Made by a program: the position numbers and the translations under genes | Assembly (NCBI GenBank): GCA_030691385.1 | Contig: JAUYEI010000051.1 | Span: forward strand, 1 to 64,000 | Reading direction: 5' to 3' | From: Azonexus sp. | GTDB taxonomy: Bacteria; Pseudomonadota; Gammaproteobacteria; Burkholderiales; Rhodocyclaceae | Length of the DNA stretch: 64,000 bases | Part shown: piece after piece, positions 8,091 to 60,928 of the stretch | Numbering within the stretch: position 1 is the stretch's first letter | Layout of the letters: the number at the start of each line of letters is the position of its first letter | The notes under the pieces: generated by a model | The model's database searches: none | Told to the model about the DNA's origin: nothing | Seen by the model: only the letters and a program-made list of their open reading frames with translations

Positions 8091-9341
8091 GTGACACCTG
8101 ACTTCACTTTCATTTTTCTGCTTTTTTTCGGGTTGACCGTGGCAGTCCGCCTCTGGCTCAAACTGCGCCACATCCGTTTCGTCGCCGCCCACCGCAACGC
8201 CGTGCCGGCCGATTTCGCCGAACGCATTGCCTTGCCGGCGCATCAAAAAGCGGCTGATTACACGGTCGACCGCAGCAAGACGGCCATCGTCGGCACGCTG
8301 ATCGAGGCCGTGCTGCTGCTGGCCTTCACCCTCGGCGGCGGCCTCGCTGCCCTGCACGATTTCTGGTCGCTCCACCTGGACAACCTGGCCTACGGCCTGG
8401 CGATGATCTTCAGCGTCATGATCATTTCCGGCCTGATCGACCTGCCGCTCTCGCTCTACAGCCAGTTCGTCATCGAAGCCCGGCACGGCTTCAACCGGAT
8501 GACCCTCGGCCTGTTCTTCACCGACCTGCTCAAGCAAACCCTGCTCGGCGTCGCCATCGGCGCCCCGGTCATCGCCGCCGTGCTCTGGCTGATGGGCGCC
8601 ATGGGCCAGTACTGGTGGCTTTACGTCTGGCTGTTCTGGAGCAGCTTCAACCTGCTCATCATGTTCGTTTACCCGACCTGGATCGCGCCGCTCTTCAACA
8701 AGTTTTCGCCGCTTGAAGACGGCGAGATGAAATCGCGCATCGAAGCCCTGCTCACCCGCTGCGGTTTCCGCTCCTCCGGCCTCTTCGTCATGGATGGGTC
8801 GAAGCGTTCGAGCCATGGCAACGCCTATTTCACGGGCTTCGGCAACAACAAGCGCATCGTCTTCTTCGACACCCTGCTGGCGCGCCTCGAACCGCCCGAA
8901 GTCGAAGCCGTGCTGGCGCACGAACTCGGCCATTTCCGCAAGAAACACGTCGTCAAGCGCATGGTCCTGATGTTTGCCGGCTCGCTCGCTTTCCTCTGGC
9001 TGCTCGGCCAGTTGATCGACGCCCCGTGGTTCTACGCCGGCCTCGGCGTACCGGCGCAAAGCACGGCGCTGGCGCTCATCCTCTTCTTTCTGGTCATGCC
9101 GGTGTTCACCTTTCTGCTCAGCCCGCTCATGAGTCAGCTTTCCCGCCGCCACGAATTCGAGGCCGATGCCTACGCGGCTCAACACGCCGCTGCCGACGAC
9201 CTCATCCGCGCCCTGGTCAAGCTCTATCAGGACAACGCCTCAACCCTGACCCCCGACCCGCTACACTCGCTGTTCCACGATTCCCACCCGCCAGCAGCGC
9301 AACGCATTGCGCACCTGCAACTTCAGGAGAAACCCGCATGA
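8091..9341 (+). CDS. M48 family (STE24-type) membrane metalloprotease
   Basis: 416-residue integral membrane peptidase resembling CAAX-prenyl protease Ste24. The zinc site HELGHF lies near residue 280 and the third ligand is in the [13 protein letters not shown] segment. About seven hydrophobic helices are visible. It starts with GTG at 8091, 56 bp from the divergent orn start. Its first helix (residues 6-18, [13 protein letters not shown]) is encoded by a copy of the dispersed 39-bp repeat. Bacterial members are thought to act in membrane protein quality control; the substrate here is unknown. The stop overlaps the ATG of the next cytochrome gene. Confidence 0.9.
8107..8144 (-). repeat. 39-bp dispersed repeat, copy inside the M48 protease gene
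   Basis: The reverse complement contains CCACGGTCAACCCGAAA, then an A-rich stretch and a TGAAA end. It differs from the 15-base core at one position. It is translated as the first membrane helix of the protease. Confidence 0.7.
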
Positions 9342-9652
9342 AAACAGTCACCGCACTGCTTGCCGCCTGCCTGATCGCCCTGCCGGCACTGGCCGCCGAG
9401 CCGTGGGGCAATGCCGATCCGAAAGTCGGCAAGGAACACCATGACAAGGCCTGTGTCGCCTGCCATGTCCGCCTCTACGGCGGCGATGGCAGCAAGATGT
9501 ACACCCGCGACGGTCGCCTGCTGTCGACCAAGCTCGACATCCTGCAACGCGTCGCCACCTGCAACTCGCAGGTCAAGGCCGGCTGGTTCCCGGAAGAAGA
9601 GGCCGAAGTCGCCGCTTACCTGAACCAGCAGTACTACCACTTCAAGGATTAA
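9338..9652 (+). CDS. Small periplasmic monohaem cytochrome c
   Basis: 104-residue precursor with a clear Sec signal peptide ([20 protein letters not shown], cleavage after residue 20) and one haem-binding CVACH near residue 42. The remainder is short and lacks a strong distal Met motif, although KMYTRDG could supply one. It overlaps the protease stop by ATGA and is followed four bases later by rsgA, so the three genes form an operon. Its electron-transfer partner is unknown. Confidence 0.85.
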   Translation: MKTVTALLAACLIALPALAAEPWGNADPKVGKEHHDKACVACHVRLYGGDGSKMYTRDGRLLSTKLDILQRVATCNSQVKAGWFPEEEAEVAAYLNQQYYHFKD

Positions 9653-9655
9653 GGG

Positions 9656-10522
9656 ATGGAAGGTCGCGTCATTGCCGCGCACGGCCGCCAGTACGTCGTC
9701 GAACTGGCCGACGGCTCACGCCTGCCCTGTTTTCCGCGCGGCAAGAAAAGCGATGTCGCCTGCGGCGATCGCGTCGATATCAAGCAAACCTCCGACGACC
9801 AGGGCGTCATCGAGGCCATCCAGCCGCGCACCAGCCTGCTCTACCGCTCCAACGAAATCCGCCAGAAACTGATCGCCGCCAATGTCGATCAACTGGTCAT
9901 CGTCGTCGCCACCGAACCGGCCTTTTCCGACGAACTGATCGCCCGCGCCCTCGTGGCGGCGGAAAGCGAGGAAATCGAGCCGCTCATCGTGCTCAACAAG
10001 TGCGACCTCGCCGACAAGCTGCCAAGCGCCCGCCAGCGCCTGGCGGTGCTCGCCGACCTCGGCTACCGTGTCCTCGAACTGTCTGCCCTCGAACACGCCG
10101 AAGACCTGCGCCCCTACCTCGCCAACCAGACCAGCGTACTCGTCGGTCAATCCGGCATGGGCAAGTCGACGCTGGTCAATGCGCTGATCCCCGAGGCCCG
10201 CGCCGCCACCCGCGAAATATCGCAGGCCCTCGACTCCGGCAAACACACGACAACACACGCCACGCTCTACCACCTCGATGCCGACAGCCATCTGATCGAT
10301 TCGCCCGGCCTCCAGGAATTCGGCCTGGGCCACCTCGACCGGCAGGAAATCGAACAGGCCTTTCCGGAATTTCGCCCCTATCTCGGTCAGTGTCGTTTTC
10401 GCGACTGTCATCACAACCGCGAACCGGATTGCGCCCTGATTGCTGCAGTCGACGCGGGGAAAATCGAAAACTCACGCTTTTCCACCTATCACCGCATTGT
10501 TGGCAACCAACGAAATAGCTGA
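9656..10522 (+). CDS. rsgA: Ribosome small-subunit-dependent GTPase A
   Basis: 30S assembly GTPase of 288 residues with the circularly permuted G-motif order. The OB-fold is N-terminal, then G4 NKCD (about residue 118), G1 GQSGMGKST (about 163) and G3 DSPG (about 218). A C-terminal zinc knuckle follows, with Cys/His in CRFRDCHHNREPDC. It releases RbfA and checks late 30S maturation. Length and motifs are typical. It lies last in the protease-cytochrome-rsgA run. Confidence 0.96.
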   Translation: MEGRVIAAHGRQYVVELADGSRLPCFPRGKKSDVACGDRVDIKQTSDDQGVIEAIQPRTSLLYRSNEIRQKLIAANVDQLVIVVATEPAFSDELIARALVAAESEEIEPLIVLNKCDLADKLPSARQRLAVLADLGYRVLELSALEHAEDLRPYLANQTSVLVGQSGMGKSTLVNALIPEARAATREISQALDSGKHTTTHATLYHLDADSHLIDSPGLQEFGLGHLDRQEIEQAFPEFRPYLGQCRFRDCHHNREPDCALIAAVDAGKIENSRFSTYHRIVGNQRNS

Positions 10523-10583
10523 CAACAAGGCTACATCGGCTCGTGCCGGCGTATTTTGGCCGTCCAGTTGAGCCTATGCGCCA

Positions 10584-10622
10584 TTGCTACGGTCAACCGG
10601 AAATTTTGGCGAAAATTGAAAT
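10584..10622 (+). repeat. 39-bp dispersed repeat, intergenic copy after rsgA
   Basis: TTGCTACGGTCAACCGGAAA followed by TTTTGGCG and AAAATTGAAAT. It carries the exact 15-base core. It lies in the 230-bp gap between rsgA and the HD-GYP gene. Confidence 0.9.
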
Positions 10623-11838: not shown

Positions 11839-11841
11839 ACG

Positions 11842-14800
11842 ATGTCGAGCCCCCGTCACCACAGCCAGCAACAGGAACTGCGCCGGGCCATCGCCCAGGT
11901 GGTGCTGCCCTATGTTGCGCTGGCGGCCCTGTGGATTCTGGTCTCCGATCAGCTTCTTGCCTACCTCGTCCCCGATGCCGAGGCGCGGCTCACGATCAGC
12001 ATGCTCAAGGGCTGGTTCTTCATCGCCATTACCGCCGCACTCCTTACCGTACTGCTCTATCGCCTGCTCCGTGACAGTCTGGCCCGCCGCACGGCTGCCG
12101 AGGATGCCAGGGCCGCTCTCGAACACGAACGCGGCCACCTGCGCACCCTCTTCGACACCATACCCGACCTCGTCTGGCTGAAAGATCCCGACGGCGTCTA
12201 TCTTAGCTGCAACAAACGCTTCGAACAGTTCTTCGGGGCCGACGAAGCCAGCATCCGGGGGAAAACCGACTTCGATTTCGTCGACCCGGAACTGGCCAGA
12301 TTCTTCCGCGCCAACGATCTCGCCGCCCTGCTCGCCAATGGGCCTTGTCGCAACGACGAGTGGGTGACCTTCGCCAGCGATGGCCATCGCGAACTGCTGG
12401 AGACCACCAAGGCGCCGATCCACGACAGCGCCGGGCATCTGCTCGGCGTCCTCGGCATCGGTCGCGACATGACGCAGAACCACGAATTGCAGGAACGGTT
12501 TACCGTCGCCTTCAATGGCAGCCCGGCAGCCATTTCGCTAACCGCGCTGGACAACGGCACATTTCTCGAAGTCAATCCGCGTTATCAGGAACTCCTCGGC
12601 TGGACGCGGGAAGAGCTCATCGGCAAAAGCTCGCTCGATTTTCATTTGTGGCCGAGCAACGCAGCTCGGGATGCCTGGCGCGACAGGCTCATGGAAACCG
12701 GCCTGCTCCAGGACTATCAGACCGAGTGGCGGCGCCGCGACGGAACAGCGACCCAGATCAGCCTCTCGGCCGAAATCGTTCGCCTCGGTAGCAAGCCTTA
12801 CGTGCTTGCCTTCGTGCTCGACATTTCCGAACGTAAAACGGCAGCCGAGCAAATCGCCCAATTGCAGGATCGCCTGGCCATCGCTTTCCGCGCGGCGCCG
12901 GTCGCCGCCTGCATCACCCGCGTCGCCGATGGGAAAATGATCGATGTCAACGAACAACTGCTCAGCGAATACAGTGCGACGCGTGAAGAACTGATCGGCA
13001 AGACCACCATCGAGGCCGGACTCTGGAAGGCCGAGGATCGAGCCCGGATGGTCGAGATACTCCGCCGCGATGGCTTCGTCGTCGATTTCGAAAGCATCGC
13101 CACCGGCCGCGATGGCCGCCAGCGACGCATCAGCCTTTCTGCCGCCAGGATCGATGTAAACGGCGAACCGCATATCGTCGTCTACATCATCGACGTATCG
13201 GAACGCCGAGCCGCCGAACAGGCATTGCGCGAACGCGAAGAGATTTTCCGCAGCATCGTCACTCATGCCAACGACGGCATCTGCCTGATCGATCCCGAGA
13301 CCCTGGGCTTCATCGAAATCAACGACGCCATCATCCACAACCTCGGCTACCTGCGCGCTGAATTTACCGGAATGAGCCTGCTCGACCTGCAGGTGGAAAC
13401 CACTGAAGCCGAGCTTCGCGCCTTCCTGGCCGAAATCATCCGCCAGGGCAACAGCACGTTCGAGCGCCGGCACCGACGCCACGACGGCAGCGTCCAGGTC
13501 GCCCGTATCGCTGCCTCGGCGGTCAGCGTCGGGGACAGCGTCAAAATATCCGCCATCTGGCAGGACATCACGGAAGCCAAGCAGACCGCAGCCGAACTGC
13601 AACAGCATCGCGAACACCTCGAAGAACTGGTCGAAGCACGAACCACCGAACTTGAGGCCGCCAGGCAGGCGGCCGAACAGGCCAACCGGGCAAAAAGCGA
13701 CTTCCTGGCCAACATGAGCCACGAAATCCGCACGCCGATGAATGCCATCATCGGACTTACCCACCTTGCCGAGCATCACACCCAGGACACCGAGCAACTC
13801 GAGCGCCTGAACAAGGTGGCGGATGCCGCACGCCATCTGCTGGCGATCATCAACCAGATCCTCGACATCTCGAAGATCGAGGCCGGCAAGCTGGAACTCG
13901 CCCCGGTCGATTTTCTCCTTTCACGCGTCCTCGACAATACGGCCGAACTGGTCCTTGACCGCCTGCAATCACGCGGCCTCCAGTACCGCCAGGAAATCGA
14001 CCCGGCGCTGCCGCCGGTGCTCCATGGCGACCCCTTGCGCATTGGCCAGGTCCTGCTCAATTACCTCGGCAACGCGGTCAAGTTTACCGAAACCGGCAAG
14101 ATTACAGTCTCGGTCAATCTGGTCATGGCCGAGGCCGACAATCTGCTCGTGCGTTTTGCTGTCTCCGACACCGGCATCGGCATCCCGCCCGAACAGCAAG
14201 GCCGGCTTTTCAAGGCCTTCGAACAGGCCGACAACTCACCGACCCGACGTTTTGGCGGGACCGGACTCGGGCTGGCCATCGCCCATCGGCTGGCCCACCT
14301 GATGGGTGGCGAGGCCGGTGTGACAAGCACCCTCGGCCAGGGCAGCACCTTCTGGTTTACCGTCCGCCTGCAGGTTGGAACATCCGCTACCGACATCGTC
14401 ACGCCACGCCTCTCGGCTGACGAAGCGGAACGGGTGATCAGCAGCGAATACGCCCATGCACGCATCCTGCTCGTCGAAGACAACGCGATCAATCAGGAGG
14501 TCGCACTCGAGTTGCTGCGCGGGGTTGGCCTGCAGGCCGATCTTGCGGTCAACGGAAAAAAAGCCGTAAAAATGGCAGCCGAAACGGCCTACGATCTGAT
14601 CCTCATGGACATCCAGATGCCGATCATGGATGGCCTGACCGCCACCCGTCTGATTCGGGCGACCCCCGGTGGCCGCCGCGTGCCCATTCTGGCCATGACC
14701 GCCAACGCCTTCGGCGAGGACCGTCAGCGCTGCCTCGACGCCGGCATGAACGACCATGTCGCCAAGCCGGTCAACCCGGGCAATCTCTATGCCACGCTGA

Positions 14801-15267
14801 TCAAATGGCTGACACCGGCCGTCATCGAGACCAGCCCCAGCCCCAGCCTCGCCCCGGCGCCTGCCGCATCCGATGCGGCCCAGGCGACAATCGCCGCCCT
14901 CGAAAAAGTGCCCGGGCTGGATAGCGCCTACGGCCTGCAGGCCATGCGCGGCAAGCTGCCCAGTTATTTGCGCCTGCTCGGCATTTTCCTCGAGACGCAT
15001 GGCAAGGATGCCGAGAAAATCAGCGCCGCCCTGAACAGCGGCGACCTTTCGCAGGCCGGGCACATTACCCATAGCATCAAGGGCGTTTCCGGCACCCTTG
15101 GCCTGGAGGGAGTCTACAAAGCAGCCCTGGCCCTCGATGACGCCTTGCGCCAATCTGCCGAGCCACCGGCAATCGCCCGCCTCGTCACCACCCTGGGCGA
15201 ACGCATGGACGGAACAGCGGGCGCCCTGTCGCCGATCATTGCGGCGAACAAAACCGAAAGCAAATGA
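11842..15267 (+). CDS. Membrane hybrid sensor kinase (PAS x4, HisKA, HATPase, REC, Hpt)
   Basis: A 1141-residue phosphorelay protein. Two membrane helices lie near residues 15-38 and 52-72 with only a short loop between them. Four PAS domains follow (about 90-560), then the H-box [14 protein letters not shown] (His 627), ATPase motifs ([21 protein letters not shown]), a receiver (VEDNAIN, Asp 923 in LMDIQMP) and an Hpt domain (THSIKG, His 1077). It is translationally coupled to the next kinase by ATGA and follows the HD-GYP regulator by 3 bases. A cytosolic or membrane small-molecule cue through PAS is likely; the cue is unknown. Confidence 0.92.
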
Positions 15268-18200
15268 GCGAAAGTCCCGCCATCACGCTACATGACATCA
15301 TGAGCAGCCAGGTGCACAGCCTGCCACCCGACGCGACGCTGCGCGAAGCCGCGCAACTGATGGCCGATGAGCACATTTCCAGCCTGCTCGTCATGGACGC
15401 TGGAAAAGCACTGGGCATCATGACCGAAAGCGGCATCCTGCGCACCCTGCATGAGTACCAGTCGGGTGATTTCCGGCTCGACGCCATCATGTCGAGCCCG
15501 CTGGTCACCGCGCCGGCCAATCTCGATCTGGCCAGCGCCCGCCGCCTCGTCGAGGAGCATGGCATCCGCCACCTCGTCGTCACCGATTCAGACGGCCAGG
15601 TCTGCGGCATCGTCAGCGACACCGATTTTTGCCTGCGCCTGGGCGCCGAAGCCTTTCGCCACCTGCGAACGGTGGAAGGCAGCATGGATCGCAATATCCC
15701 CAATCTGCCGCCGGCAGCGACGCTTGGCGACGCCCTGGCGAGCATGGTCGGGCATGCTGCCGACTACCTGATCGTCACCGAGGATGGCAAGCCGATCGGC
15801 ATCATTACCGAGCGAGACATCCCGCGCCTGATCTGCACCTGTCCGCAACTGCACGCCACCACCTTGCGCGAAGCGATGAGCTCGCCCTTGCGCAGCGTCG
15901 ATGTCGATGCAACGGTCAGCACCGCGCTGGAGACGATGAACCGCTTCCGGCTCCGGCACATGGTCGTTCTCGCCAGTGACAACCGGATTCTCGGCGTCAT
16001 CAGCCAGCGCCGGCTGTTCGAGCAGCTAGCGCTGGAACATCTGGAAAGTGCGATATTCCAGGCCCGGCAGGAAGGCGAGCGGCTGCGCCTCGAAACCCAT
16101 CTGCGCCTGGCACTCGACGGCGCCGCAGCCGGCAGTTGGGAATATAGCCACCAGCGCGGCAGCCTGATCGCCAGCAATGGCCTGCTGGCCATGCTCGGCC
16201 ATACGCGAGCCGGCGCGCCCGAGACCAAGGCTGACTGGATGGCGCAAATCCATCCCGACGACCGGCATTTGCTGGTTGCCACGGTCAACGAGAAAAATCG
16301 CCCGAAAAATCATTCCCGGGTTCTCGAATACCGGATTCGCCACCACAACGGCCATTGGCTCTGGGTGGAGGATCGCAGCTGCATCGTCGAACGCGGCGCC
16401 GACGATAGCCCCACCGTAACCACGGGCGTGGTCAACGACATCACCGAACGCCAGGTCATCCGCCAGCAGATCACCCGTCAGAACCGCGCCCTGCGCATGA
16501 TGAGCAGCGTCGCCCAGGCCCTGGTCCGCTACAACGATACCCAGCAGATGCTGGCCGAGGTGTGCACCGTCCTGGTTGAAATCGGCGGCTATCTCATGGC
16601 CTGGGTCGGCGAAGTGATGCAGGACGAGAAAAAGAGCATCGTGCCGCTGGCCAGTTCGGGGCTGAGCGAACCGTATCCGAGCAATCTGCAAGTTAGCTGG
16701 GACGATACGCCGAGCGGCCGTGGACCGGGCGGCCGCGCCGCCCGCAGCGGCATCCCGGCCATCGTCCGCAACATCGACGACGATCCGTCCTTCGAGCCAT
16801 GGCGCTCGGCGGCACGCGAGCAGGGATTTCGCGCGACGATAGCCCTCCCGCTGCGCGTTGACGGGCGGGTCACCGGCGTCCTCAATCTGTATTCGGCCAC
16901 CGTCGACCCGTTTGACGACGAGGAAATCGCCCTGCTCGGCAACCTCGCCGGCGAACTGGGCCTCGGCATGAGCATGCAGCGCTCGCGGCAAACGCTGGCC
17001 CAAAGCGAAGCCATGCTGCTCCAGGCCCAGCGCCTGGCACGGCTTGGCCACTTCACTTTCGATGCAACGAGCGACTGCCTGAGCGGTTCGCCGACGCACA
17101 ACGAAATATTCGGCATGGCGCCGGATGAACGGCTCGACACCGAGGGCTGGCGGCAACTGATCCATCCCGAAGACCGGCAGCGCATGAGCGATTACTCGCG
17201 TGACCACGTCTTTCGCGACGGGCAGGCGTTCGACAACGAATACCGCCTGATCCGCCGCAATGATGGCCAGGAACGCTGGATCCACACCGTCGGCCAGATC
17301 GCCTATGGCAGCGACGGCCGGGTCAGCCGGCTGTTCGGCACGAGCCAGGACATTACCGAGCGCAAGCAGTTCGAGCAGCACCTGAACCAGAGCGAGGCGG
17401 ACCTCAAGGAAGCGCAGGCTGTCGCCCACCTCGGCAGCTGGCGGCTCGACATCGTCAATGACAAGCTCAACTGGAGCCCCGAGGTTTACGACATATTCGG
17501 CCTCCCCGGCGATCACCCCCTGCACCTCACCGATTTCGTCGAACGTATCCATCCGGATGACCGGGAACGCGTTCTGAGCGACTGGCAGGCTGCCCTGACC
17601 GGGGCCAGCTACGACAACGAGCATCGCATCGTCGTCAATGGCGAGCTGCGCTGGGTCCGTGAGCGGGCCAATGTCCGCTTTGACCCGTCCGGCCAGGCGG
17701 TATTCGCGGTGGGCACGGTGCAGGATGTCACCGAGCGTCACCTCGCCGAGGAACAGTTGAGCAAGCTGTCGCTGGCCATCGAGCAAAGTCCGCACAGCAT
17801 CGTCATCACCAATATCCGTGCCGAAATCGAGTACGTCAACGATGCCTTCGTCAGCAACACCGGCTATCGCCGCGAAGAGGTCATCGGCAAAAAACCGAGC
17901 CTGCTGCAATCCCGGGAGACACCGGAGGAAACCTATACCAGGCTGTGGGCAACACTCGGCGCAGGAAACACCTGGCGCGGTGAATTCATCAACCGGCGCC
18001 AGGATGGTTCCATCTTCATCGAATTCGCCATCATCTCGCCAGTGCGCCAGCAGGATGGGGGGATCACCCACTACCTCGCCATCAAGGAAGACATTACCGA
18101 GAAAAAGCACATCCAGTCCGAACTCGAGAACTATCGTCACCATCTCGAGACACTGGTCGCCGACCGTACCGAGCAACTGATTTCGGCCAAGGATGAAGCC

Positions 18201-19967: not shown

Positions 19968-21196
19968 GCCCGACTCTCCAGCCAGCGACCGGCGCCCAGC
20001 CCGGCCGCCCGGCCGCTGGCGAAACAGGCGGTGAGCAGATAGCCGCCGGTCGGCGCCTCCCAGTCCAGCATCTCGCCGGCACAGAAGACGCCGGGCTGGC
20101 GGCACAGCATGAGGTTTTCGTCCAGCCCTTCGAAGGTGACGCCGCCGGCCGTGCTGATTGCTTCGTCGAGCGGCCTTGCCGCCGTCACTGTCAGCGGCAA
20201 GGCCTTGATCACGGCGGCGAGATTGCTCGCCACGTTGAAGGTCTCCGGCCGACAGAATTCGCGGAGCAGCCCGGCCTTGACACCTTCGATGCCAGCATGC
20301 CGGCGCAGATGGTTGGCCAGCGAATCGCGGCCACGCGGCCGGGAAAGGTCGGCGCTCAGTTTTTCCAGGCTGCGCCCGGGCGCCAGATCGAGGTGGAGCA
20401 CGGCACTGCCGTCGCGGGCCAGCGCCTCACGCAAGGGGGCCGACACGGCATAGATCAGGCCGCCTTCGACACCCGTCGCCGTAATGTTGAATTCGCCCTT
20501 TTTTTCCGGTTGACCGTGGCAATGGGCGCTGACGGCCTTGACCGGCGCCCCGGCAAAACGTGCGCTGAAATACGGGCTCCACGCCACGTCGAAACCGCAG
20601 TTGGCCGGCTTGAGCGGCGCCACCTCGATGCCGCACTCAAGCAACATGGGCACCCAGGCGCCATCCGAACCGAGTTTGGCCCAGCTACCACCACCGAGGG
20701 CCAGAATGACCGCGTCGGCGTGGACCGCAATCTCGCCGGCCGGCGTCGCAAAACGCAGGCAGCCATCAGCCGCCCAGCCAAGCCAGCGGTGGCGCACATG
20801 AAACTGCGCGCCCTGGCTGCGCAGGCGATGCAGCCAGGCACGGAGCAGCGGTGCCGCTTTCATGTCGGTGGGAAAAACCCGGCCCGAACTGCCGACGAAG
20901 GTATCGATGCCGAGGCCGTGTATCCATTCGCGCAGTTGGCTCGGACCGAAGGCGTCGAGCAATGGCGCGATCTGTGCGGCACGATCACCGTAGCGCCCGA
21001 TGAAATCGGCCAGCGGCTCGGAATGCGTGATGTTCATGCCGCCCTTGCCGGCCATCAGGAACTTGCGGCCGACCGAGGGCATGGATTCGAAAATATCGAC
21101 TTTTTTCCGGTTCACCGTGGGAATCGCTGCCGCCAGCATGTCGGCCGCCATGAGCCCGGCCGGGCCGCCGCCGATGATGGCGACGCGCTGGGTCAC
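19964..21196 (-). CDS. HI0933/TIGR03862-type flavoprotein (NAD(P)/FAD-dependent oxidoreductase)
   Basis: A 410-residue FAD protein with an N-terminal Rossmann motif ([17 protein letters not shown]) and the family's [22 protein letters not shown] signature. It ends in the second FAD-contact region ([31 protein letters not shown]). The family includes BaiN-like reductases, but the true substrate is unknown. Two copies of the dispersed repeat are translated here: residues 25-37 (IPTVNRKK, lengthening the turn before the beta strand VDIFES) and 225-236 ([10 protein letters not shown]). The gene is convergent with the CBS kinase (stops overlap by 4 bp) and its ATG overlaps the transglutaminase stop. 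Confidence 0.88.
20488..20523 (-). repeat. 39-bp dispersed repeat, copy within the flavoprotein gene (codons 225-236)
   Basis: The reverse complement reads TTGCCACGGTCAACCGGAAA and then AAAAGGGCGAATTCAA, with the exact 15-base core. It is in frame with the gene and gives [12 protein letters not shown]. Confidence 0.85.
21087..21123 (-). repeat. 39-bp dispersed repeat, copy within the flavoprotein gene (codons 25-37)
   Basis: The reverse complement reads TTCCCACGGTGAACCGGAAA then AAAGTCGATATTTTCGAA, with one change in the core. It lies between the Rossmann helix and the following strand and encodes [12 protein letters not shown]. Confidence 0.8.
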
Positions 21197-24722: not shown

Positions 24723-24749
24723 AAAAAACAGGCCGTTTCCGGCCTGTTT
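24723..24749 (-). terminator. Intrinsic terminator between the DUF2126 gene and the ATP-grasp/alpha-E gene
   Basis: AAACAGGCCG, TTTC and CGGCCTGTTT form a perfect 10-bp stem. On the minus strand it is followed by six T residues. It ends about 20 bp before the ATG of the downstream gene and abuts a 39-bp repeat copy. Confidence 0.85.
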
Positions 24750-24782
24750 CCACGGTCAACCCGATTTTTTGGTCAAAACCTG
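24748..24782 (+). repeat. 39-bp dispersed repeat, partial copy beside a terminator
   Basis: TCCACGGTCAACCCGATTTTTTGGTCAAAACCTG. It matches the core at 12 of 15 positions and retains the GGNCAAAA half. It overlaps the stop codon (24773-24775) of the DUF2126 gene. Confidence 0.7.
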
Positions 24783-27700
24783 CGCAAGTCTAGCGTAAAC
24801 GGGTGCTCGGCGCTGACCTCCGGCGCCTTGGCCTGCAGCTTGCCCGGCGTGTGGCCGAAGCGGAAGAAGCGGGCCAGACGACGGCTTTCGGCCTCGAAGG
24901 CATTGACCGGGAAGGTGTCGAAACTGCGCCCGCCCGGATGCGCGACGTGGTACTGGCAACCGCCCAGCGAACGCTGCATCCAGGTATCGACGATGTCGAA
25001 AACCAGCGGCGCATGGACGCCGATGGTCGGGTGCAGGCAGGACGCCGGCTGCCAGGCGCGGTAGCGCACGCCGGCAACGAATTCGCCGTTGGTGCCGGTG
25101 TTCTGCAGCGGCACCGGAACGCCGTTGCAGGTCAGCACGTAGCGGTCGGGCGCCATGCCCTTGATCTTGACCTGGACGCGCTCGACCGACGAATCGACGT
25201 AGCGCACCGTGGTCCCGGCACTGCCCTCCTCGCCCATGACGTGCCAGGGTTCGAGGGCGTGGCGCAGTTCGAACTCCATGCCCTTGACGGCGAAATCGCC
25301 GTATTTCGGGAACCTGAATTCGAAGTGCGGGGCGAACCATTCAGCCTTGAAGGCAAAGCCGGCCTCGGCCATTTCCTGCATGACGTCCTTGAAATCCTGA
25401 TCGGCGTAAAAGGGCAGCATGAAGCGGTCGTGCAGTTCGGTGCCCCAGCGCGCCAGGCGGGCCGGCTCGTAGGGCGTCTCCCAGAAGCGGGCGATCATGG
25501 CGCGGAGCAGCAGTTGCTGGGCGAGCGACATGCGGGCGTGCGGCGGCATTTCGAAGGCGCGCAGCTCAAGCAGGCCGAGGCGGCCGGTCGGGCCGTCCGG
25601 CGAGTAGAGCTTGTCGATGCAGAACTCGGAACGGTGCGTGTTGCCGGTGACGTCGGTGAGCAGGTTGCGCAGGATGCGGTCGATCAGCCACGGCGGCACG
25701 ACGCCACCCGGCTGCGGAATCTGCTTGAAGGCGATTTCCAGCTCGTAGAGGCTGTCGTTGCGGGCTTCATCGACGCGCGGCGCCTGGCTGGTCGGGCCGA
25801 TGAACAGGCCGGAGAACAGGTAGGACAGGCTCGGATGGTTGTGCCAGTAGGCAACCAGGCTCTTGAGCAGGTCCGGCCGACGCAGGAAGGGCGAATCGTT
25901 CGGCGTGGCGCCGCCGAGGACGAAGTGGTTACCGCCGCCGGTGCCGGTGTGGCGGCCATCGACCATGAACTTTTCGGTGGTCAGGCGCGCGTAGTAAGCC
26001 GATTCGTAAAGGTGCGTCGTCTGGTCGACCAGTTGATCCCAGGACTTGGCCGGGTGGATGTTGACTTCGATGACGCCGGGGTCGGGCGTCACCCGGAAGT
26101 GGGTCAGGCGCGGATCGGACGGCGGCTCGTAGCCTTCCATGATGACCGGCATCTGCATCTCTTCGGCCGTCGCCTCGACAGCGGCAACGATGTCGAGATA
26201 GTCGTCGAGCTTTTCGGTCGGCGGCATGAAGACGTAGAGCCGGCCATCGCGCGGCTCGGCGCACATGGCCAGGCGGGTGATCCAGCCAGCCGATTCCTTG
26301 AAACGCGGCATCGTCTCGGTCGGCTTTTCCCATGGGCGCAGCTTGCCGTCGCCGGACTCGCCGCTGGCGGCACCGGCACTGGCCGGACGGCGGCTCTGCA
26401 TCTGCGGCTCACGGGCACCGGTTTCACCGCTCACGCGGTTGCGCAGGGCAGCGTAACTGGCCAGCGGATCGGTCGCCGTCTCGGCATCGGGCACATTGAC
26501 GTAGGGGTAGTCGCTGGTTGCCGTCCACGGCTGCGAGTCGTACGGCAGGCGGTAGCCCATGGCCGAATCGCCGGGGAACAGGTAGCAACGCTCGGCACGC
26601 AGGAACCACGGGCCGGTCTGCCACTGATTCCAGACATTCTTCATGATCGGCAGGACGTGGCCGACGGTGTAGGTCATGCCCTGGGTGAACACCTTCATGA
26701 GGCGTTCGCGCTCCAGCGCGTCATCGACGCGGGAGTCGAAGGGATCGACGTTGCCGGGCAGACGACGCTCGCGCCACAGGTAGTAATAAACGTCCTCGAA
26801 GGCCGGGAAGACGTAGTCGGAAGTCATGCCGAGGCGTTCGGCGACGCGCTTGAGGAAGCGCTGGGCGTGTTCGGCCGTGGCGCCGTAGTTCACGCTTTCG
26901 TTGGCGTACAGCTCGGGGGCATTCCAGATCGGCTCGCCGTCCTTGCGCCAGAAGCAGTTCAGCGACCAGCGCGGGAGCTGTTCGCCGGGATACCACTTGC
27001 CCTGGCCGAAGTGCATGAGGCCGTTCGGGGCGTATTTCTGGCGCAGGCGGTGGAAAATGTCGGCGGCAAACAGGCGCTTGGTCGGGCCGAGGGCGGCGGT
27101 GTTCCATTCGGCGCCGTCCGGGTCGTCGACGGCGACGAAGGTCGGCTCGCCGCCTTGCGTCAGGCGCACGTCCAGCTTGCCCAGCGTGTCGTCGATCTGG
27201 TGGCCGAGGCTCTCGATCTCGACCCACTGCTCGTCGGTGTAGGGCTTGGTGACGCGCGGCGCTTCCCAGATGCGGGTGACCTGCATGTGGTGCGAAAACT
27301 CGGTTTCGCATTCGTCGAGGCCGCCGGTAACCGGCGCGGCGGAACCCGGTTCCGGCGTGCAGGCGAGCGGGATGTGGCCTTCGCCAGCGAACAGGCCGGA
27401 GGTCGGGTCGAGGCCGATCCAGCCGGCGCCCGGCAGATAGACTTCGGCCCAGGCATGCAGGTCGGTGAAGTCGGCTTCCGGGCCGGAGGGGCCGTCGAGC
27501 GACTTGATGTCGGCGGTCAACTGGATCAAATAGCCGGAAACGAAACGCGCGGCCATGCCAAGATGGCGCAGGACTTGAACCAGCAGCCAGGCCGAGTCAC
27601 GGCACGAGCCGGAACGCATGGTCAGCGTTTCTTCCGGGGTCTGGACACCCGGTTCCATGCGGATGGTGTAGCTGATGGCCTTTTGCAGATCGGCGTTGAG

Positions 27701-29751: not shown

Positions 29752-29846
29752 AACCTTGAAACCTCAGTTGGACGCGGCTGATGGTGCGTCCGGACGGGAT
29801 GGCCGGCGCGAAGCGACGCTGCAGCAGGCGCATGCCAGCAAGAAGG
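29752..29846. mobile_element. MITE-A, left-end fragment
   Basis: It begins AACCTTGAAACCTCAGTTG and follows the full copy at 140-383 for about 95 bp, with a small internal deletion. It breaks off after GCAAGAAGG. No right end is present. Confidence 0.8.
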
Positions 29847-29880: not shown

Positions 29881-30141
29881 TCAGCGCAGGCCGCCGTAGT
29901 CGTCGGCCAACTGGCTGCGCGCCGCCACCCGGATTTCGATGATGCGGTCGATATCGCGCAGGACTTCCGGCGTCGCCGGCTTGCCCTTGAGTTTGAGCTT
30001 GAGGAACGTAAAAATCGGCCAAATTTGAAATCCGTCTTCGCTGCCTTGCCGAGTGCGCCATGCAGCGTCCCTCGCGCGCAGCCCGTATAATTCGCGCTCC
30101 CGGGCCCTGCCCTGCTTCCGATCGCCAGCATGTTCCAGCAT
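29881..30141 (-). CDS. Possible small protein of unknown function
   Basis: An 86-codon frame antisense to the start of the cytochrome gene. Only its last ~45 residues (FTFLKLKLKGKPATPEVLRD then IDRIIEIRVAARSQLADDYG) look protein-like, with acidic/basic alternation and a predicted helix. The first half overlaps cytochrome coding sequence and has unlikely composition. A degenerate 39-bp repeat sits in the middle (30001-30033). It may be a gene tail left after rearrangement. I do not recognise a family. Confidence 0.25.
   Translation of the reverse strand: MLEHAGDRKQGRARERELYGLRARDAAWRTRQGSEDGFQIWPIFTFLKLKLKGKPATPEVLRDIDRIIEIRVAARSQLADDYGGLR
30001..30033 (+). repeat. Degenerate 39-bp repeat half
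   Basis: GGAACGTAAAAATCGGCCAA followed by ATTTGAAATC resembles the right half of the repeat (GGAAA-N-TGGCC-AAAA-TGAAAT). The ACGGTCAACC half is missing. Confidence 0.35.
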
Positions 30142-30585
30142 TTGAAATTTCCCCTTTTTTTCCTGTTGACCGTAGCAATGCTCGCCGGCTGTGGCGAAGT
30201 CGAAGATACGCGGCCGGGACAACCAGTGAAGCACCGGCAGGTCGCCTTCAAGGAAATCGTCAAGACTTTCGAGCCGATGGGTGTGATGCTGCGCAAGGGC
30301 ACCTACGATGCCGACAAGTTCCTGCCGCTGGCCGAAGCCCTGCTCGCCAAACGGGATGGTCCGTGGGCGTATTTTGGCGCGGATACCAATTACCCGCCGA
30401 CCAAATCAACGCCTGATGTCTGGAAGCAGCCGGACGAATTCGAGAAGAACAAGAAAGCCTTCATCGCTGCCACCGACGCCCTGCTCGCTGCCGCGCAGAG
30501 CAAGGACAAGGCGCAGGTCGACAAGACCTATGACGCCGTGCATGAGGCCTGCAAGACCTGCCACAAGCAGTTCAAGGAACGCTGA
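30130..30585 (+). CDS. Class II (c'-type) cytochrome c lipoprotein
   Basis: A 151-residue precursor. The signal peptide ends in the lipobox LAGC (Cys 22), so it should be a lipoprotein. The mature part is mainly helical and carries the haem site CKTCH near the C-terminus (residues 141-145), the position typical of class II cytochromes c' and c556. Residues 4-16 of the signal peptide (KFPLFFLLTVA) are encoded by a copy of the dispersed repeat. The FAD dehydrogenase gene follows after 18 bp and may be co-transcribed. Confidence 0.88.
   Translation: MFQHLKFPLFFLLTVAMLAGCGEVEDTRPGQPVKHRQVAFKEIVKTFEPMGVMLRKGTYDADKFLPLAEALLAKRDGPWAYFGADTNYPPTKSTPDVWKQPDEFEKNKKAFIAATDALLAAAQSKDKAQVDKTYDAVHEACKTCHKQFKER
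30139..30178 (-). repeat. 39-bp dispersed repeat forming the signal peptide of the cytochrome lipoprotein
   Basis: The reverse complement reads TTGCTACGGTCAACAGGAAA then AAAAGGGGAAATTTCAAATG, with one change in the core. It covers codons 4-16 of the cytochrome gene. Confidence 0.8.
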
Positions 30586-32305: not shown

Positions 32306-32341
32306 CTTGAAACCTCAGCCGCGTCCACCTGAGGTTTCAAG
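32306..32341. mobile_element. MITE-A tips only (36-bp remnant)
   Basis: CTTGAAACCTCAG, a 10-base spacer and CTGAGGTTTCAAG: the two terminal repeats without any interior. It could be an internal deletion product. It lies in the 308-bp gap between the FAD dehydrogenase and the TIR gene. Nothing else was recognised in that gap. Confidence 0.7.
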
Positions 32342-34774: not shown

Positions 34775-34791
34775 TGATCTGATTGCGGCGG

Positions 34792-34831
34792 TTGCTACGG
34801 TCAACCGGAAAAAACAGCTAAAAATGAAATG
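34792..34831 (+). repeat. 39-bp dispersed repeat upstream of cysD
   Basis: TTGCTACGGTCAACCGGAAA then AAACAGCTAAAAATGAAATG, with the exact 15-base core. It lies 18 bp after the OmpA-like gene and 137 bp before cysD. The rest of the gap is AT-rich and probably holds the cysD promoter, but no confident -35/-10 pair was assigned. Confidence 0.9.
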
Positions 34832-37908: not shown

Positions 37909-37911
37909 GGA

Positions 37912-37949
37912 TTCCCACGGTCAACCGGAAATATCGGCTGAAATTGAAA
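37912..37949 (+). repeat. 39-bp dispersed repeat between cysN and its terminator
   Basis: TTCCCACGGTCAACCGGAAA then TATCGGCTGAAATTGAAA, with the exact 15-base core. It starts 4 bp after the cysN stop, so it lies in the transcribed 3' region. Confidence 0.9.
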
Positions 37950-37975
37950 ACGCCTCCGCTCTGGAGGCGTTTTGA
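37947..37975 (+). terminator. Intrinsic terminator of cysN
   Basis: AAAACGCCTCC, loop GCTCT-like, and GGAGGCGTTTT form a strong GC stem flanked by A and T runs, 38 bp after the cysN stop. Confidence 0.88.
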
Positions 37976-42730: not shown

Positions 42731-42762
42731 CCGGACATATTCACGGCCAGATTTTCCCGGAG

Positions 42763-42800
42763 CCCCACGGTCAACCGGAAATTTTGCCCAATTTTGAAAT
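42763..42800 (+). repeat. 39-bp dispersed repeat upstream of the DUF1415 gene
   Basis: CCCCACGGTCAACCGGAAAT then TTTGCCCAATTTTGAAAT, with the exact 15-base core. It lies 33 bp after the DUF4124 gene and 46 bp before the DUF1415 ATG. Confidence 0.9.
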
Positions 42801-46671: not shown

Positions 46672-46672
46672 C

Positions 46673-48893: not shown

Positions 48894-51800
48894 GCGACTA
48901 CAAGACCATTGCCGAATCGAAAAACTTCATCGTCCTGGATAAATACACCAAGGAATGGCAGGCCAATGAAAGCTACCAGAGCGAATACGATTTGGAGCGG
49001 GAGTTCATTCAGGATTTGCAGAATCAGGGCTACGACTATGTGCCTGACCTGAATACGCCGGAGAAGCTGCTGGCCAATGTGCGCGAAGCCTTGCAGGCGC
49101 TGAACAATTTGCAGTTTTCCGACGGCGAGTGGCGGCGTTTTGTGGAAACCTGGCTGGACAAGCCCAGCGACGGCATCGTCGAGAAAACCCGCAAGATTCA
49201 CGATGACTATGTTCACGACTTCGTCTTTGACGATGGACATATCCAGAACATCTACCTGCTGGATAAAAAGAATATTGCCCGCAACAAGGTGCAGGTCATC
49301 AGGCAGTTTGAGCAAAAGGGCAGCCACGCCAACCGCTACGATGTGACCGTGTTGGTCAATGGCCTGCCGCTGGTGCAGGTGGAGCTGAAAAAGCGCGGCG
49401 TGGCGATTCGTGAAGCCTTTAACCAGGTACACCGCTACAGCAAGGAGAGCTTCAACAGCGAGTATTCCTTGTTCAAATATTTGCAGCTGTTTGTGATCTC
49501 CAACGGCACCGACAGCCGTTATTTCGCCAACACCACGCAGCGCAACAAGAACAGCTTCGACTTCACCATGAACTGGGCGAAGGCGGATAACAGTTTGATC
49601 AAGGACCTGAAGGACTTTACCGCCACCTTTTTCCAGAAAAAGACCCTGCTCAATGTGCTGCTGCATTATTCGGTGCTTGATGTCAGCAACACGCTGCTGG
49701 TCATGCGGCCCTACCAGATTGCCGCCACCGAACGCATTCTGTGGAAGATCAACTGCGCCTGGCAGGCGAAAAACTGGAGCAAGACGGAAAGCGGCGGCTA
49801 CATCTGGCACACCACCGGCTCAGGCAAGACCCTGACCAGCTTCAAGGCGGCGCGTTTGGCCACTGAGCTGGATTTCATAAATAAGGTGTTTTTCGTGGTC
49901 GACCGCAAGGATCTGGATTACCAGACCATGAAGGAATACCAGCGTTTTTCACCGGACAGCGTCAATGGTTCGGACAGCACGGCTGGCCTCAAGCGCAACC
50001 TGGACAAGGACGACAACAAGATCATCGTCACCACCATCCAGAAGCTCAACAACCTGATGAAGAGCGAAGGCGACCTGCCCATCTACGGCAAGCAGGTGGT
50101 GTTCATTTTTGACGAGTGTCACCGCAGCCAGTTTGGCGAAGCGCAGAAAAATCTGAAGAAGCGGTTCAAGAAGTTCTACCAGTTCGGCTTTACCGGCACG
50201 CCGATCTTTGCCGGAAAGAATGCGCTGGGCGCGGAAGACACGGCAAGCGTATTTGGCCGGGAGTTACATGCCTATGTAATCACCGACGCTATCCGCGATG
50301 AAAAGGTATTGAAGTTCAAGGTGGACTACAACGATGTGCGTCCACAGTTCAAGGCCGTTGAAAGCGAGCAGGACGAGAAAAAACTCAGTGCGGCGGAAAA
50401 CCGGCAGGCCTTGTTGCACCCCGACCGTATCCGCGAAATCACCCAATACATCCTGAATAATTTCCGGCAAAAGACTCATCGCCTGCAAGCGAGTGCCAAA
50501 GGCTTCAATGCCATGTTTGCGGTTAGCAGCGTGGATGCCGCCAAGCTGTATTACGAGTCCTTCAAGGATTTGCAAAAGAAGAGCGACAAGCCGCTGAAAG
50601 TGGCCACCATCTTTTCGTTTGCCGCCAACGAGGAGCAGGAAGCGGTAGGCGACATTCAGGATGAGAGTTTTGAAGTTTCAGCCTTGAGCAGCAGCGCCAA
50701 GGAGTTCCTGGGCGCGGCCATCGCTGATTACAACACGCTGTTCAAAACCAATTTCAGCGTGGATAGCAACGGATTCCAAAACTATTACCGCGATCTGGCC
50801 AAGCAGGTTAAAGCCAAGGAAATCGACCTGCTGATTGTGGTGGGAATGTTCCTGACCGGCTTCGATGCGCCGACGCTGAACACCTTGTTCGTCGATAAGA
50901 ACCTGCGCTACCACGGCTTGATGCAGGCCTACTCGCGCACCAACCGAATTTTTGACGCCACCAAGACCTTCGGCAATATCGTCACTTTTCGCGATCTGGA
51001 GCAGGCGACCATCGATGCCATCACCTTGTTCGGTGACAAGAACACCAGGAACGTGGTGCTGGAGAAGAGTTACAAGGAATACATGGAAGGCTTCACCGAT
51101 GTGCTGACCGGTGAAGCGCGGCGTGGCTTTGTGGACGTGGTGCGAGAGTTGGAGCAGCGTTTTCCCGACCCCGCCGCGATTGAAAAGGAGTCCGACAAAA
51201 AGGCGTTTGTGAAGCTGTTTGGCGAGTATTTGCGCGTTGAGAACGTGCTGCAAAACTTCGATGAATTCGCCAGCTTGAAGGCTTTGCAAGGCGTTGACAT
51301 GAACGATCCTGCAGCGGTCGAGGCATTCAAGGCCAAGCGTTATTTAAGCGATGACGACCTGGCTGCGCTTCAGGCAATCAAGATACCGGCGGAACGAAAG
51401 ATCCAGGATTACCGTTCAACCTACAACGACGTTCGCGATTGGCTGCGCCGGGAAAAGTCTTCCGCCGAGAAGGAAAAATCCACCATCGACTGGGATGACG
51501 TGGTTTTTGAGGTCGACCTGCTGAAGTCGCAGGAAATCAACCTGGACTACATTCTGGAATTGATTTTCGAGCACAATAAAAAGGTCAAGGACAAAGCTTC
51601 TCTGGTTGAAGACGTGCGCCGGGTGATTCGTGCCAGCCTGGGCAACCGAGCCAAAGAAGGCCTGCTGGTCGATTTCATCAACCAGACCGATCTGGACCAG
51701 ATAGGCGACAAGGCCAGCGTGATTGACGCCTTCTTTACCTTTGCTCAAGCGGAACAGCAGCGCGAGGCGCAAGAGCTGATTAGCGACGAGAACCTGAATG

Positions 51801-51991
51801 CTGAGGAGGCCAGGCGTTACATCACCGCCTCTCTAAAACGGGAATTCGCCAGTGATAATGGGACTGAACTCAATGCAATTTTGCCAAAGATGAGCCCGTT
51901 GAATCCGCAGTACCTGACGAAAAAACAAAGCGTCTTCCAGAAAATCGCTGCTTTTGTCGAAAAGTTCAAAGGCGTGGGCGGGCAGGTTTAA
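48890..51991 (+). CDS. hsdR: Type I restriction enzyme motor/nuclease subunit
   Basis: A 1033-residue subunit like R.EcoR124I. The N-terminal PD-(D/E)xK nuclease contains VQVELKKRG (~residue 165). The helicase Walker A is HTTGSGKT (~310), motif II is [10 protein letters not shown] (~408), motif III is FGFTGTP, and later motifs ([20 protein letters not shown]) are intact. C-terminal helices bind the methylase core. All key residues are present, so restriction is probably active. It ends the operon; beyond 51991 come ~285 bp of mixed repeats before core genes resume. Confidence 0.97.
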
Positions 51992-52276
51992 TGGGATTGT
52001 GGCCAGCGCCAGGGTTCAATCGAGAGGATCGGGCCAACTTGAATACGGCAGCTGCTGTCGTTTGTATCATGTGCCCCCAACGACCGCTTCGGCCGAGTAG
52101 TTTGCGTAGGGCGTCCGGCAGCTCTCCGAGTACAGCGGTCGTTCAGACGGCGGCTATCAGGAGAAATTGTATGACCGCAGTTGGCCGATTTTTGCCTTAT
52201 GACGCAAGCGTGGAAGGTGCGCTATCCCCCACCTTCCACGGTCAACCCGAAAAAACGGCCAAAAATGAAATGCTGA
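51992..52276. other. Right edge of the restriction island
   Basis: About 285 bp without a recognisable gene. It holds a 39-bp repeat copy (52234-52272) and scraps such as CAACGACCGCTTCGGCC and CAGCGGTCGTTCAGACGGC that may pair. No direct repeat with the left edge was found by eye. Confidence 0.4.
52234..52272 (+). repeat. 39-bp dispersed repeat at the island's right edge
   Basis: TTCCACGGTCAACCCGAAAA then AACGGCCAAAAATGAAATG, with one change in the core. It ends 5 bp before the stop of the minus-strand gene at 52277. Confidence 0.88.
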
Positions 52277-55518: not shown

Positions 55519-55602
55519 ACGGCAAAGGGGCCTACGCGGCATACTTCACCACCCTGCTCGCCCCGCATTTCGCCAGCCCGGACACTGCCGGGACGCTGGC
55601 TA

Positions 55603-55720
55603 GCGTGCCAGCGGCCACGTAGCGCTGTCACCCAACGGGTGAATGGCCTCGAAGGGGCAAAGGCCGGTATTCATGCGACTGGCTGAGGATGGATGAGCGG
55701 TCAACTGAGGTTTCAAGGTT
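55603..55720. mobile_element. MITE-A, right-end fragment
   Basis: From GCGTGCCAGCGGCCACGTAG to the terminal CAACTGAGGTTTCAAGGTT, about 118 bp with several substitutions relative to the full copy. The left end is absent. Confidence 0.8.
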
Positions 55721-55721
55721 G

Positions 55722-55838
55722 ATGTACATGCTGCGCAAACTGCCCAAACGCACCGGCAGCGTGGTGCATGGCGGCCTCAAGTTCGAGGTCAAGCGGCGAC
55801 CAGTTCCGCCTGAAAACTGTCGAGGCTCGACGGCCTAG
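55722..55838 (+). pseudogene. Short coding-like remnant after MITE-A
   Basis: A 38-codon frame begins two bases after the MITE-A tip (MYMLRKLPKRTGSVVHGGLK). LPK-TG-VVHGGLKFEV loosely recalls the C-terminal transporter-associated domain of CorC/HlyC proteins, but the match is too short to name. It overlaps the DUF2789 stop by 4 bp. It is most likely a leftover from the rearrangement that brought the element. Confidence 0.2.
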
Positions 55839-57475: not shown

Positions 57476-57534
57476 AACTGGAACGATGGCGAGGCACCGA
57501 GTCTCCTGCTGCAGATCGAGGAAGAATGTTGCTG

Positions 57535-57574
57535 ATCCGACGGTCAACCGGAAAAATTGGCCAAAAATGAAATG
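57535..57574 (+). repeat. 39-bp dispersed repeat after the Crp/Fnr remnant
   Basis: ATCCGACGGTCAACCGGAAA then AATTGGCCAAAAATGAAATG, the cleanest example of the right half, with the exact 15-base core. Confidence 0.92.
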
Positions 57575-59837: not shown

Positions 59838-59846
59838 GCCATCGCC

Positions 59847-60611
59847 ATGAGCCAAGCCGCCTACTGGATTCTGCGCTGCGAGCATCGCCTGCTGACGATC
59901 AGCGGAGCCGGATCGGTCTTCCCCGCCGGTCTGGCCGGCGATTTCGGCCTGCCCGAAAATGCCCTGCGCGTTGGCGACTTGAACGGCCTGCCCTGCCATG
60001 CCGCCGATGTCGCCGACTTCCCCGAACTTCCCGGCGGCGAAGCGACGCCGCTGCGCGCCATATTCTCGATCGCCGGCCCCGACACCTTCGCGCTGGCCGG
60101 CCGCGCCACGCAGTTGCTCGACTGGCGGGCCAACCACCGTTTCTGCGGCAAGTGCGGCACGCCGACGGCCATGAAAACCGGCGAACTGGCCATGCACTGC
60201 CCAAGTTGCGGCCTGCTCGCCTACCCGCGCATTTCGCCGGCCGTCATGGTCCTGGTGCGCGATGGTGACAAACTGCTGCTCGGCCGCAGCCCGCATTTCA
60301 AGCCGGGCGTCTTCAGCGCCCTGGCCGGGTTTGTCGAACCCGGCGAAACGCTCGAGGAATGCGCCGCCCGCGAAGTGCGCGAGGAGGTCGGCATAGCAAT
60401 CGCCAACCTGCGCTATTTTCACAGCCAGCCGTGGCCCTTCCCCAATTCGCTGATGGTCGCCTTTTTGGCCGACTACGCCGGCGGCACGATTACGCCCGAT
60501 CGGAACGAAATCGAGGCGGCAGCATGGTTTTCGCCCGACGCCCTGCCGATTCTGCCCGAGCCCATCAGCATCTCCCGCCGGCTCATCGAAGCGGCGCTGC
60601 ACGAGCACTGA
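59847..60611 (+). CDS. nudC: NADH pyrophosphatase / NAD-RNA decapping hydrolase
   Basis: A 254-residue Nudix enzyme with the NudC layout: an N-terminal domain, a four-Cys zinc ribbon (FCGKCGTPT and HCPSCG, ~residues 98-121) and a Nudix box starting GFVEPGETLEECAAREVREE (~150-172). The SQPWPFPNS signature (~190-198) separates NudC from other Nudix families. It removes NAD caps from RNA and cleaves NADH. Typical length. Confidence 0.96.
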   Translation: MSQAAYWILRCEHRLLTISGAGSVFPAGLAGDFGLPENALRVGDLNGLPCHAADVADFPELPGGEATPLRAIFSIAGPDTFALAGRATQLLDWRANHRFCGKCGTPTAMKTGELAMHCPSCGLLAYPRISPAVMVLVRDGDKLLLGRSPHFKPGVFSALAGFVEPGETLEECAAREVREEVGIAIANLRYFHSQPWPFPNSLMVAFLADYAGGTITPDRNEIEAAAWFSPDALPILPEPISISRRLIEAALHEH

Positions 60612-60928
60612 AGCCGGCACACAGACTTTTCATTTTTGGTCATTTTTTCCGGTTGACCGTGACGAGCCTTCACACCTGCGTAACCAACGCGACATTATGT
60701 CGTTCCGTGCCTGGCGAGAAAAATCCATGCCATTTGCACGAAGTGGCACGCCACATTCCGGTGCATGACAAGGCGAATGAGAACCGTTCCTAATTAATTG
60801 TAATTAAAGAACTTTTTTCACAATCTTCCTTCTAATATCAGGCAAGCCAACTTAAAATCGCGGCATGGGCAAGCTAGCTGTGGCCCGCCAGCCAGCCCGC
60901 TACCCACCGAACCTTACGGAGAAAAGCC
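60612..60928. promoter_or_regulatory. Leader region of the bacterioferritin operon
   Basis: 317 bp without a gene. It begins with a 39-bp repeat copy (60626-60664) and turns AT-rich from about 60786, with TAATTAATTGTAATTAAAG and TTCACA further on. That stretch probably holds the bfr promoter. TACGGAGAAAAGCC is the ribosome-binding region of the first bfr gene. No clear Fur box was found by eye here. Confidence 0.5.
60626..60664 (-). repeat. 39-bp dispersed repeat after nudC
   Basis: The reverse complement reads CGTCACGGTCAACCGGAAAA then AATGACCAAAAATGAAAAG, with the exact 15-base core. Confidence 0.9.

Follow-up and report, generated by a model that had tools for sequence, protein, structure and literature searches.

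A genus-restricted 40-bp repeat with several dialects in Azonexus, a probable DNA uptake sequence

A 40-bp motif is dispersed over a 64,000-nucleotide stretch of the Azonexus sp. contig JAUYEI010000051.1 (assembly GCA_030691385.1; this whole stretch is called the window below), and recurs by the hundreds in the genome that holds it. Judging from its sequence and distribution, we consider it likely that this repeat is a DNA uptake sequence, i.e., a self-recognition word bound by the type IV pilus DNA-uptake machine during competence. This reading is based on the abundance of the repeat, its strong consensus, its occurrence on both strands and in genes as well as in gaps, its restriction to one genus, its dialects, and the kept positions of its sites. 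A first-pass annotation of the window had left four readings side by side (DNA-uptake sequence, chromosome-organising sequence, protein-binding site, or small mobile element), of which the first is now the best supported.

The genome holding the window (G000) is a draft of 3,448,501 bases in 129 contigs, with 99.93% completeness and 2.96% contamination. We used genome-wide pattern counts and, for the fine anatomy, a 464-kb sample (about 13% of G000). The 15-mer ACGGTCAACCGGAAA occurs 296 times in exact form (163 on the + and 133 on the - strand), mostly outside of the window, versus 0 for its reversed control; neither of the two outcomes that the first-pass annotation had named as refuting the repeat was thus observed. 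A 14-mer with at most one mismatch yields 491 matches (control 0), and the pattern CGGTCRAC-N14-W6 yields 397 (control 3). The sample consists of 20 stretches from contigs known to hold matches and is therefore biased (48 exact 15-mers, or 103 per Mb versus 86 per Mb genome-wide), so that the density and evenness figures drawn from it are somewhat flattering.

A sequence logo built from the 86 sites of the sample whose core has at most two mismatches (48, 24, and 14 sites with 0, 1, and 2 mismatches in the 15-mer) reveals an ungapped motif, ATTsCC-ACGGTCAACCGGAAA-WWW-n-GGCC-AAAATT-G-AAAT, with the information confined to positions -6 to +33. The flanks are informative in one fixed register, and not behind a spacer of variable length (4-7 bases) as had been proposed. 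The logo holds 45.8 bits, 29.0 of them up to position +14 and 16.8 beyond, and includes two A/T tracts 11 bp apart, which span +12..+17 and +23..+28 when counted from the first base of the core. The core of G000 reads ACGGTCAACCGG. Perfect cores outnumber those with a single mismatch: a 12-mer core is found 51, 38, and 86 times with 0, 1, and 2 mismatches, versus 0, 4, and 71 times for the reversed control. Scanning the 464 kb with a weight matrix at 10 bits retrieved 97 sites, 86 of which score above 20 bits, and none in the reversed sequence.

The motif is confined to one genus and is spread through it. A search with the 14-mer in 150 genomes of the family found nothing comparable outside of the genus, and none of the 285 genomes examined from 67 other genera has more than six occurrences of CGGTCRAC-N14-W6, with the reversed control reaching up to 11 there. 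The 11 other members of the genus that were drawn contain 437, 356, 309, 265, 233, 228, 226, 159, 54, 25, and 6 copies of this pattern. Across 60 genomes of the genus, G000 included, which vary in completeness, ACGGTCAACC exceeds 150 copies in 10 and stays near the control in many, and GCGGTCGACG reaches at least 300 copies in 16, with a control that is raised in some genomes (107 in G190, 117 in G202) and a modest excess in G000 (124 versus 14). Viral contigs gave 0 matches to a 22-23-base form of the motif, which is weak evidence only. The best named match of gene 19964-21196 of the window is from Dechloromonas denitrificans ATCC BAA-841 (76% identity; Rhodocyclales, Azonexaceae in the NCBI taxonomy), which would place the host in the Dechloromonas/Azonexus group. 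A 21-kb stretch retrieved from this strain contains 15 CGGTCRAC words, a density like that of motif-bearing genomes. Single or paired dialect-A-like sites were also observed in three genomes from other genera, where the word is otherwise missing (G125:C130:44441, L382, 58.5 bits; G079:C150, L383, 36.1 and 44.7 bits; G090:C51, L384, 26.9 bits), and could reflect either DNA that came from this genus or misplaced contigs.

The spelling of the core varies between sister species, with the A/T tract staying in the same register. Based on unbiased 9-mer counts in 15 sampled genomes, words with CGGTC[AG]AC are the top 9-mers in most of the motif-bearing ones, namely ACGGTCAAC in G000 and G200, CGGTCAACC in G192, GCGGTCGAC in G179, TGCGGTCGA in G199 and G190, ACGGTCGAC in G180 and G160, and GCGGTCAAC in G168. 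Such words rank behind other repeats in G147 and G188, are weak in G163, and are not among the enriched 9-mers of G189, G196, and G112. The sample of G188 (L071-L080) holds an array resembling clustered regularly interspaced short palindromic repeats (CRISPR), in which a CCCGCGAACGCGGGGA-type repeat recurs about 90 times, and in that of G147 (L262-L267) there is another repeat with GTCGTCTCAGGCTT in high copy number. Counting from CGGTCRAC, the hexamer at +22..+27 has an A/T content of 62-71% in 12 of the 15 genomes (z 5.8-21.1), with a faint trace in G196 (z 2.8) and G112 (z 3.1) and nothing in G189; no such tract follows the reversed control word CARCTGGC at +22..+27, nor does it in 80 named loci taken together. 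The first A/T tract stands out in the ACGGTCAACC dialect and is weaker in most others. A tree of one gene unites eight species of this dialect in a supported clade (97/88), outside of which lie G160 and G166 despite their 169 and 238 copies of the 10-mer. Logos derived by expectation maximization were not used for G189, G180, G190, and G112, where they drifted into codon periodicity, nor for G196, where no motif emerged.

The placement of the sites bears on an alternative that we regard as improbable, although it survives better than the others, namely that the repeat is the binding site of an abundant intracellular DNA-binding protein (a nucleoid protein or global regulator), possibly one that binds as a dimer to the near-palindromic core CGGTCAACCG. 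The fixed 40-bp register would suit such a protein, as would the opposite strand, which reads TTGACC like a -35 box, and the enrichment of sites in non-coding DNA: by our own gene calls (389, with 87.4% of the sample called as coding), the 97 sampled sites divide into 48 genic, 35 intergenic, and 14 at the edge of a gene, so that 49 are not fully in genes and sites are relatively commoner in gaps. Yet half of them do lie inside genes, in either orientation relative to the gene (26 versus 22), and 19 of the 26 same-strand ones share a single reading frame, reading T-V-N-R-K (p 7e-5). The strong intergenic sites in tandem gaps are oriented 15:14, the 43 classified strong intergenic sites (8 in 6.4 kb of convergent, 29 in 30.5 kb of tandem, and 6 in 11.5 kb of divergent gaps) are densest per kb in convergent gaps, and the gene end nearest to them is a stop in 29 cases versus a start in 14. 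Moreover, the excess of perfect over single-mismatch cores is unlike regulatory sites, and restriction to one genus with several dialects also argues against one. The earlier suggestion of a protein-binding site thus holds insofar as a surface receptor would bind an uptake sequence, whereas a regulatory site fits poorly with the in-gene copies, the random orientation, and the proximity to stops.

The distribution along the chromosome could also point to a chromosome-organising or recombination-directing sequence (of the KOPS, Chi, matS, or Noc/SlmA type), as the first-pass annotation had considered in part, and sites per 20 kb are indeed spread more evenly than random (variance/mean 0.50 over 23 segments, p 0.026), a tentative result since the segments come from match-bearing contigs. 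We find this explanation very unlikely, as strand bias is absent both from G000, according to the counts given above, and from the single-contig chromosome of G192 (97 + and 95 -), and as the motif is limited to a single genus, with a spelling that changes from species to species; known chromosome organisers are conserved between genera. For the + sites of G192, of which 81 of 97 were examined, a uniform spread was not rejected (p 0.36).

Within the window, all 13 places listed at first are real, each being an ungapped 40-bp site, and the 40-bp weight matrix recovers 13 out of 13 (23.3-61.5 bits; 8 on the + and 5 on the - strand, in agreement with the two orientations described). Seven exact 15-mers are present, as had been counted, all within the seven copies named then, versus 0 in 100 shuffles. 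A 20-mer with at most three mismatches matches 13 times versus 0.02 expected, at 12 of the listed places and at a weak extra one at 47063; the remaining listed place, 24748, has more than three mismatches to the 20-mer and is recovered by the weight matrix only, as a degenerate site at a gene end (24746..24785, +, 23.3 bits). The strongest site is intergenic and carries the exact 15-mer (10583..10622, +, 61.5 bits), as do the intergenic sites at 34791..34830 (+, 58.4 bits), 37911..37950 (+, 58.9 bits, right after a stop codon), 42761..42800 (+, 53.8 bits), 57534..57573 (+, 59.1 bits), and 60627..60666 (-, 50.6 bits); another intergenic site lies between convergent genes (52232..52271, +, 56.5 bits). 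The statement that coding does not explain the repeat needs amendment, as coding does matter: by our gene calls, three sites lie inside genes, i.e., 16275..16314 in gene 15264-19967 (+, 39.0 bits) and two in gene 19964-21196, which encodes an FAD (flavin adenine dinucleotide)-type oxidoreductase (20484..20523, -, 51.5 bits, with the exact 15-mer, and 21085..21124, -, 40.7 bits), and three overlap gene ends, i.e., the degenerate site at 24746, the one at 8107..8146 (-, 49.7 bits), which overlaps a gene start, and the one at 30140..30179 (-, 53.6 bits). The weight matrix adds three weak in-gene sites above 10 bits that had not been listed, at 14539..14578 in gene 11842-15267 (+, 23.6 bits), at 27507..27546 in gene 24773-28141 (+, 18.2 bits), and at 49873..49912 in gene 48890-51991 (-, 13.0 bits), the last being very weak and maybe a chance match or a relic. 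Searches of the window for Rfam families and tRNAs returned 0 matches.

The positions of the sites are conserved across species. Both sites of gene 19964-21196 are found at the same places in all seven of the dialect-A sisters retrieved (G203, G151, G201, G200, G161, G152, G192) and in the dialect-B-like G183, and neither of them in G112, a nearer relative. The first site appears as [GA]CGGTCGACGG in the same loop in several other species, and the retrieved dialect-A sequences, except that of G192, differ from G112 by one codon in length at 20484. We extended the comparison to 38 in-gene sites above 20 bits, for which the retrieved samples offered orthologues in 16 site-genome pairs (one more being unmappable). 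Among the 11 pairs that involve motif-bearing genomes, 9 have a CGGTCRAC word of the same orientation no more than 15 bases away (0.29 expected), as has 1 of the 5 that involve motif-poor genomes (0.05 expected), corresponding to p 3e-13 under an independence of pairs that does not fully hold.

A small mobile element, such as a miniature inverted-repeat transposable element (MITE), a repetitive extragenic palindrome (REP), or a Rickettsia-type palindromic element, would account for many near-identical copies and for some in-gene copies lying in variable loops with length differences, but is hardly credible given the graded 40-bp match, the sites in conserved genes, the absence of any 40-bp insertion from the single gene that we aligned in detail (where both sites are common to seven dialect-A sisters), the lack of any information beyond -6..+33 and of a target duplication in the logo, and the in-gene positions that persist while the word differs between species. 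A second repeat of the window (136-385; about 240 bp, with terminal inverted repeats AACCTTGAAACCTCAGTTG and CAACTGAGGTTTCAAGGTT) does look like a MITE-type element, and related pieces lie at 29752-29819, 32315-32347, 55578-55722, and 62035-62179.

In the proposed uptake mechanism, the core (ACGGTCAACCGG here, GCGGTCGACG or ACGGTCGAC in sister species) would be bound by a receptor on the cell surface, probably a minor pilin, and the A/T tracts, located downstream by one and two helical turns, would ease the bending of the stiff duplex, allowing a DNA loop to be pulled through the outer-membrane secretin. ComEC would then pass one strand inward, and recombination would replace the home copy. 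We propose that the word builds up genome-wide by such biased uptake and recombination, because fragments with a better word would be taken up more often, and that it would do so within genes wherever the protein tolerates it. A change in receptor specificity would lead to words being re-spelled in place, and thereby to dialects.

Several observations weigh against this reading. The density of about 1 per 5 kb is below the roughly 1 per kb of known uptake sequences, and close inverted pairs were not found in the 464-kb sample, where no strong sites lie within 300 bp of each other (the closest being 453 bp apart); outside of the sample, one opposite-strand pair is 259 bp apart (C14:26605/26864). 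The core is nearly palindromic, a feature that a dimeric regulator could equally account for, and in G199 and G168 the first A/T tract fails to reach significance. The extra codons of dialect-A species relative to G112 at one of the two sites of the aligned gene suggest that not every site arose by point mutation alone. Finally, ComEC and pilins are also present in motif-less species and in non-competent organisms, so that the machinery is only permissive, and neither PilE nor FimT behaves as expected of the receptor: G000, G151/G200, G201, and G192 share a dialect and carry four PilE types and dissimilar FimTs.

ComEC was detected in 20 of 20 genomes of the genus, and also in 10 of 14 control genomes, among them E. 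coli. There are 16 type IV pilin-type matches in G000, 15 of them above the cut-off. Its PilE-type minor pilin matches the Pfam family ComP_DUS (E 4.1e-17), which is found in 26 of 26 genus genomes, including the motif-poor ones. The score to this family was rejected as a guide to the receptor, since motif-poor species tend to score higher and the types are not matched to dialect, and neither PilA nor the L097-type pilin tracks dialect. Only one of the five pilin types compared (PilE, FimT, PilA, L097-type, and L105-type) splits with dialect: the L105-type pilin shows 57-63% identity within G000, G200, and G192, and 34-40% to G112, G196, and G188. The receptor may be this orphan pilin, encoded near G000:C85:22288, a lead drawn from six genomes and one clade, which are too few. 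PilE and FimT (loci L308-L334 and L335-L364) differ greatly even among closely related species of the genus, as though entire pilin cassettes had been swapped. In another locus (L104 1456-1530, on G000:C84), a full uptake-type site spans the apparent N-terminus (VNSHGQPEILAKNEM) of a pilin-like open reading frame; it probably lies in the upstream region, the real start being a later ATG.

In the literature consulted, sequence-specific uptake words are described only for Pasteurellaceae and Neisseriaceae (PMC12616744), both mainly animal-associated (PMC7811141; PMC12616744), and share an excess of perfect over single-mismatch cores, a lack of strand bias, coding copies, dialects, and A/T segments 3' of a GCGGT core (PMC1626085; PMC3630211; PMC7811141; PMC12616744). 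The uptake signal sequences (USS) of Pasteurellaceae, with a Hin type AAGTGCGGT and an Apl type ACAAGCGGT, are the closest in design to the repeat: both come in hundreds of copies, with more perfect cores than single mismatches, without strand bias, in coding and non-coding DNA, and in clade-specific types, and both have A/T-rich segments 3' of the core at a spacing close to one helical turn (12 bp in the Hin USS and 11 bp in the repeat), a two-tract layout that is present in G000. In the same source (PMC1626085), the commonest Apl USS 10-mer is ACAAGCGGTC, to be compared with (G/A)CGGTCRAC here, the third segment of the Apl USS is AAAATTTTGCAAAT versus AAAATTGAAAT, and the A/T segment consists of As followed by Ts versus AAAWWW. 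The repeat differs from the USS by a longer core (CGGTCRAC, from CGG onwards), a lower density, and a betaproteobacterial host. The dialect of the window has ACGG, GCGG being present in sister dialects only, and the core of G000 does not match the USS core ANNNGCGGT with its GCGG inner core. Relative to the Hin consensus, the first A/T tract would also start about 6 bases further from GCGGT here. Convergence on a DNA-bending requirement and descent from a shared receptor could each explain the likeness.

The DNA uptake sequences (DUS) of Neisseriaceae often occur as inverted pairs at terminators, an arrangement that is common, though not universal; such pairs are missing from our 464-kb sample. 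The only relative of their receptor ComP found here is at the family level, without a match to dialect. The DUS resemble the repeat in being betaproteobacterial, in having dialects that follow phylogeny, and in reaching hundreds to thousands of copies (PMC3630211; PMC12616744), but are characterized by a CTG inner core and no flanking A/T segments (PMC1626085; PMC12616744), which our logo does not match.

Among the matches listed by an open-access literature search, there was no paper on uptake sequences in Rhodocyclales, and none of the open-access papers listed as containing ACGGTCAACC seemed relevant by title. We are inclined to see in this repeat a third independently evolved DNA-uptake language, used by free-living Rhodocyclales, with several dialects and several apparent losses in one genus (G112, G171, G189, and G196 among the latter), which would have converged on the Pasteurellaceae design of a GCGGTC-type core with phased A/T bend tracts, or would share it by ancient transfer. 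If true, this third case, in bacteria from water and sludge, would mean that self-selective transformation is no peculiarity of mucosal commensals, and would separate the essential design, i.e., a core and phased A/T tracts, from historical features. A genus with many dialects and apparent losses provides material for finding receptors by co-variation, and the word itself would serve as an inherent marker by which gene flow out of the group could be followed. It also suggests that other genomes may carry uptake words that have gone unnoticed.

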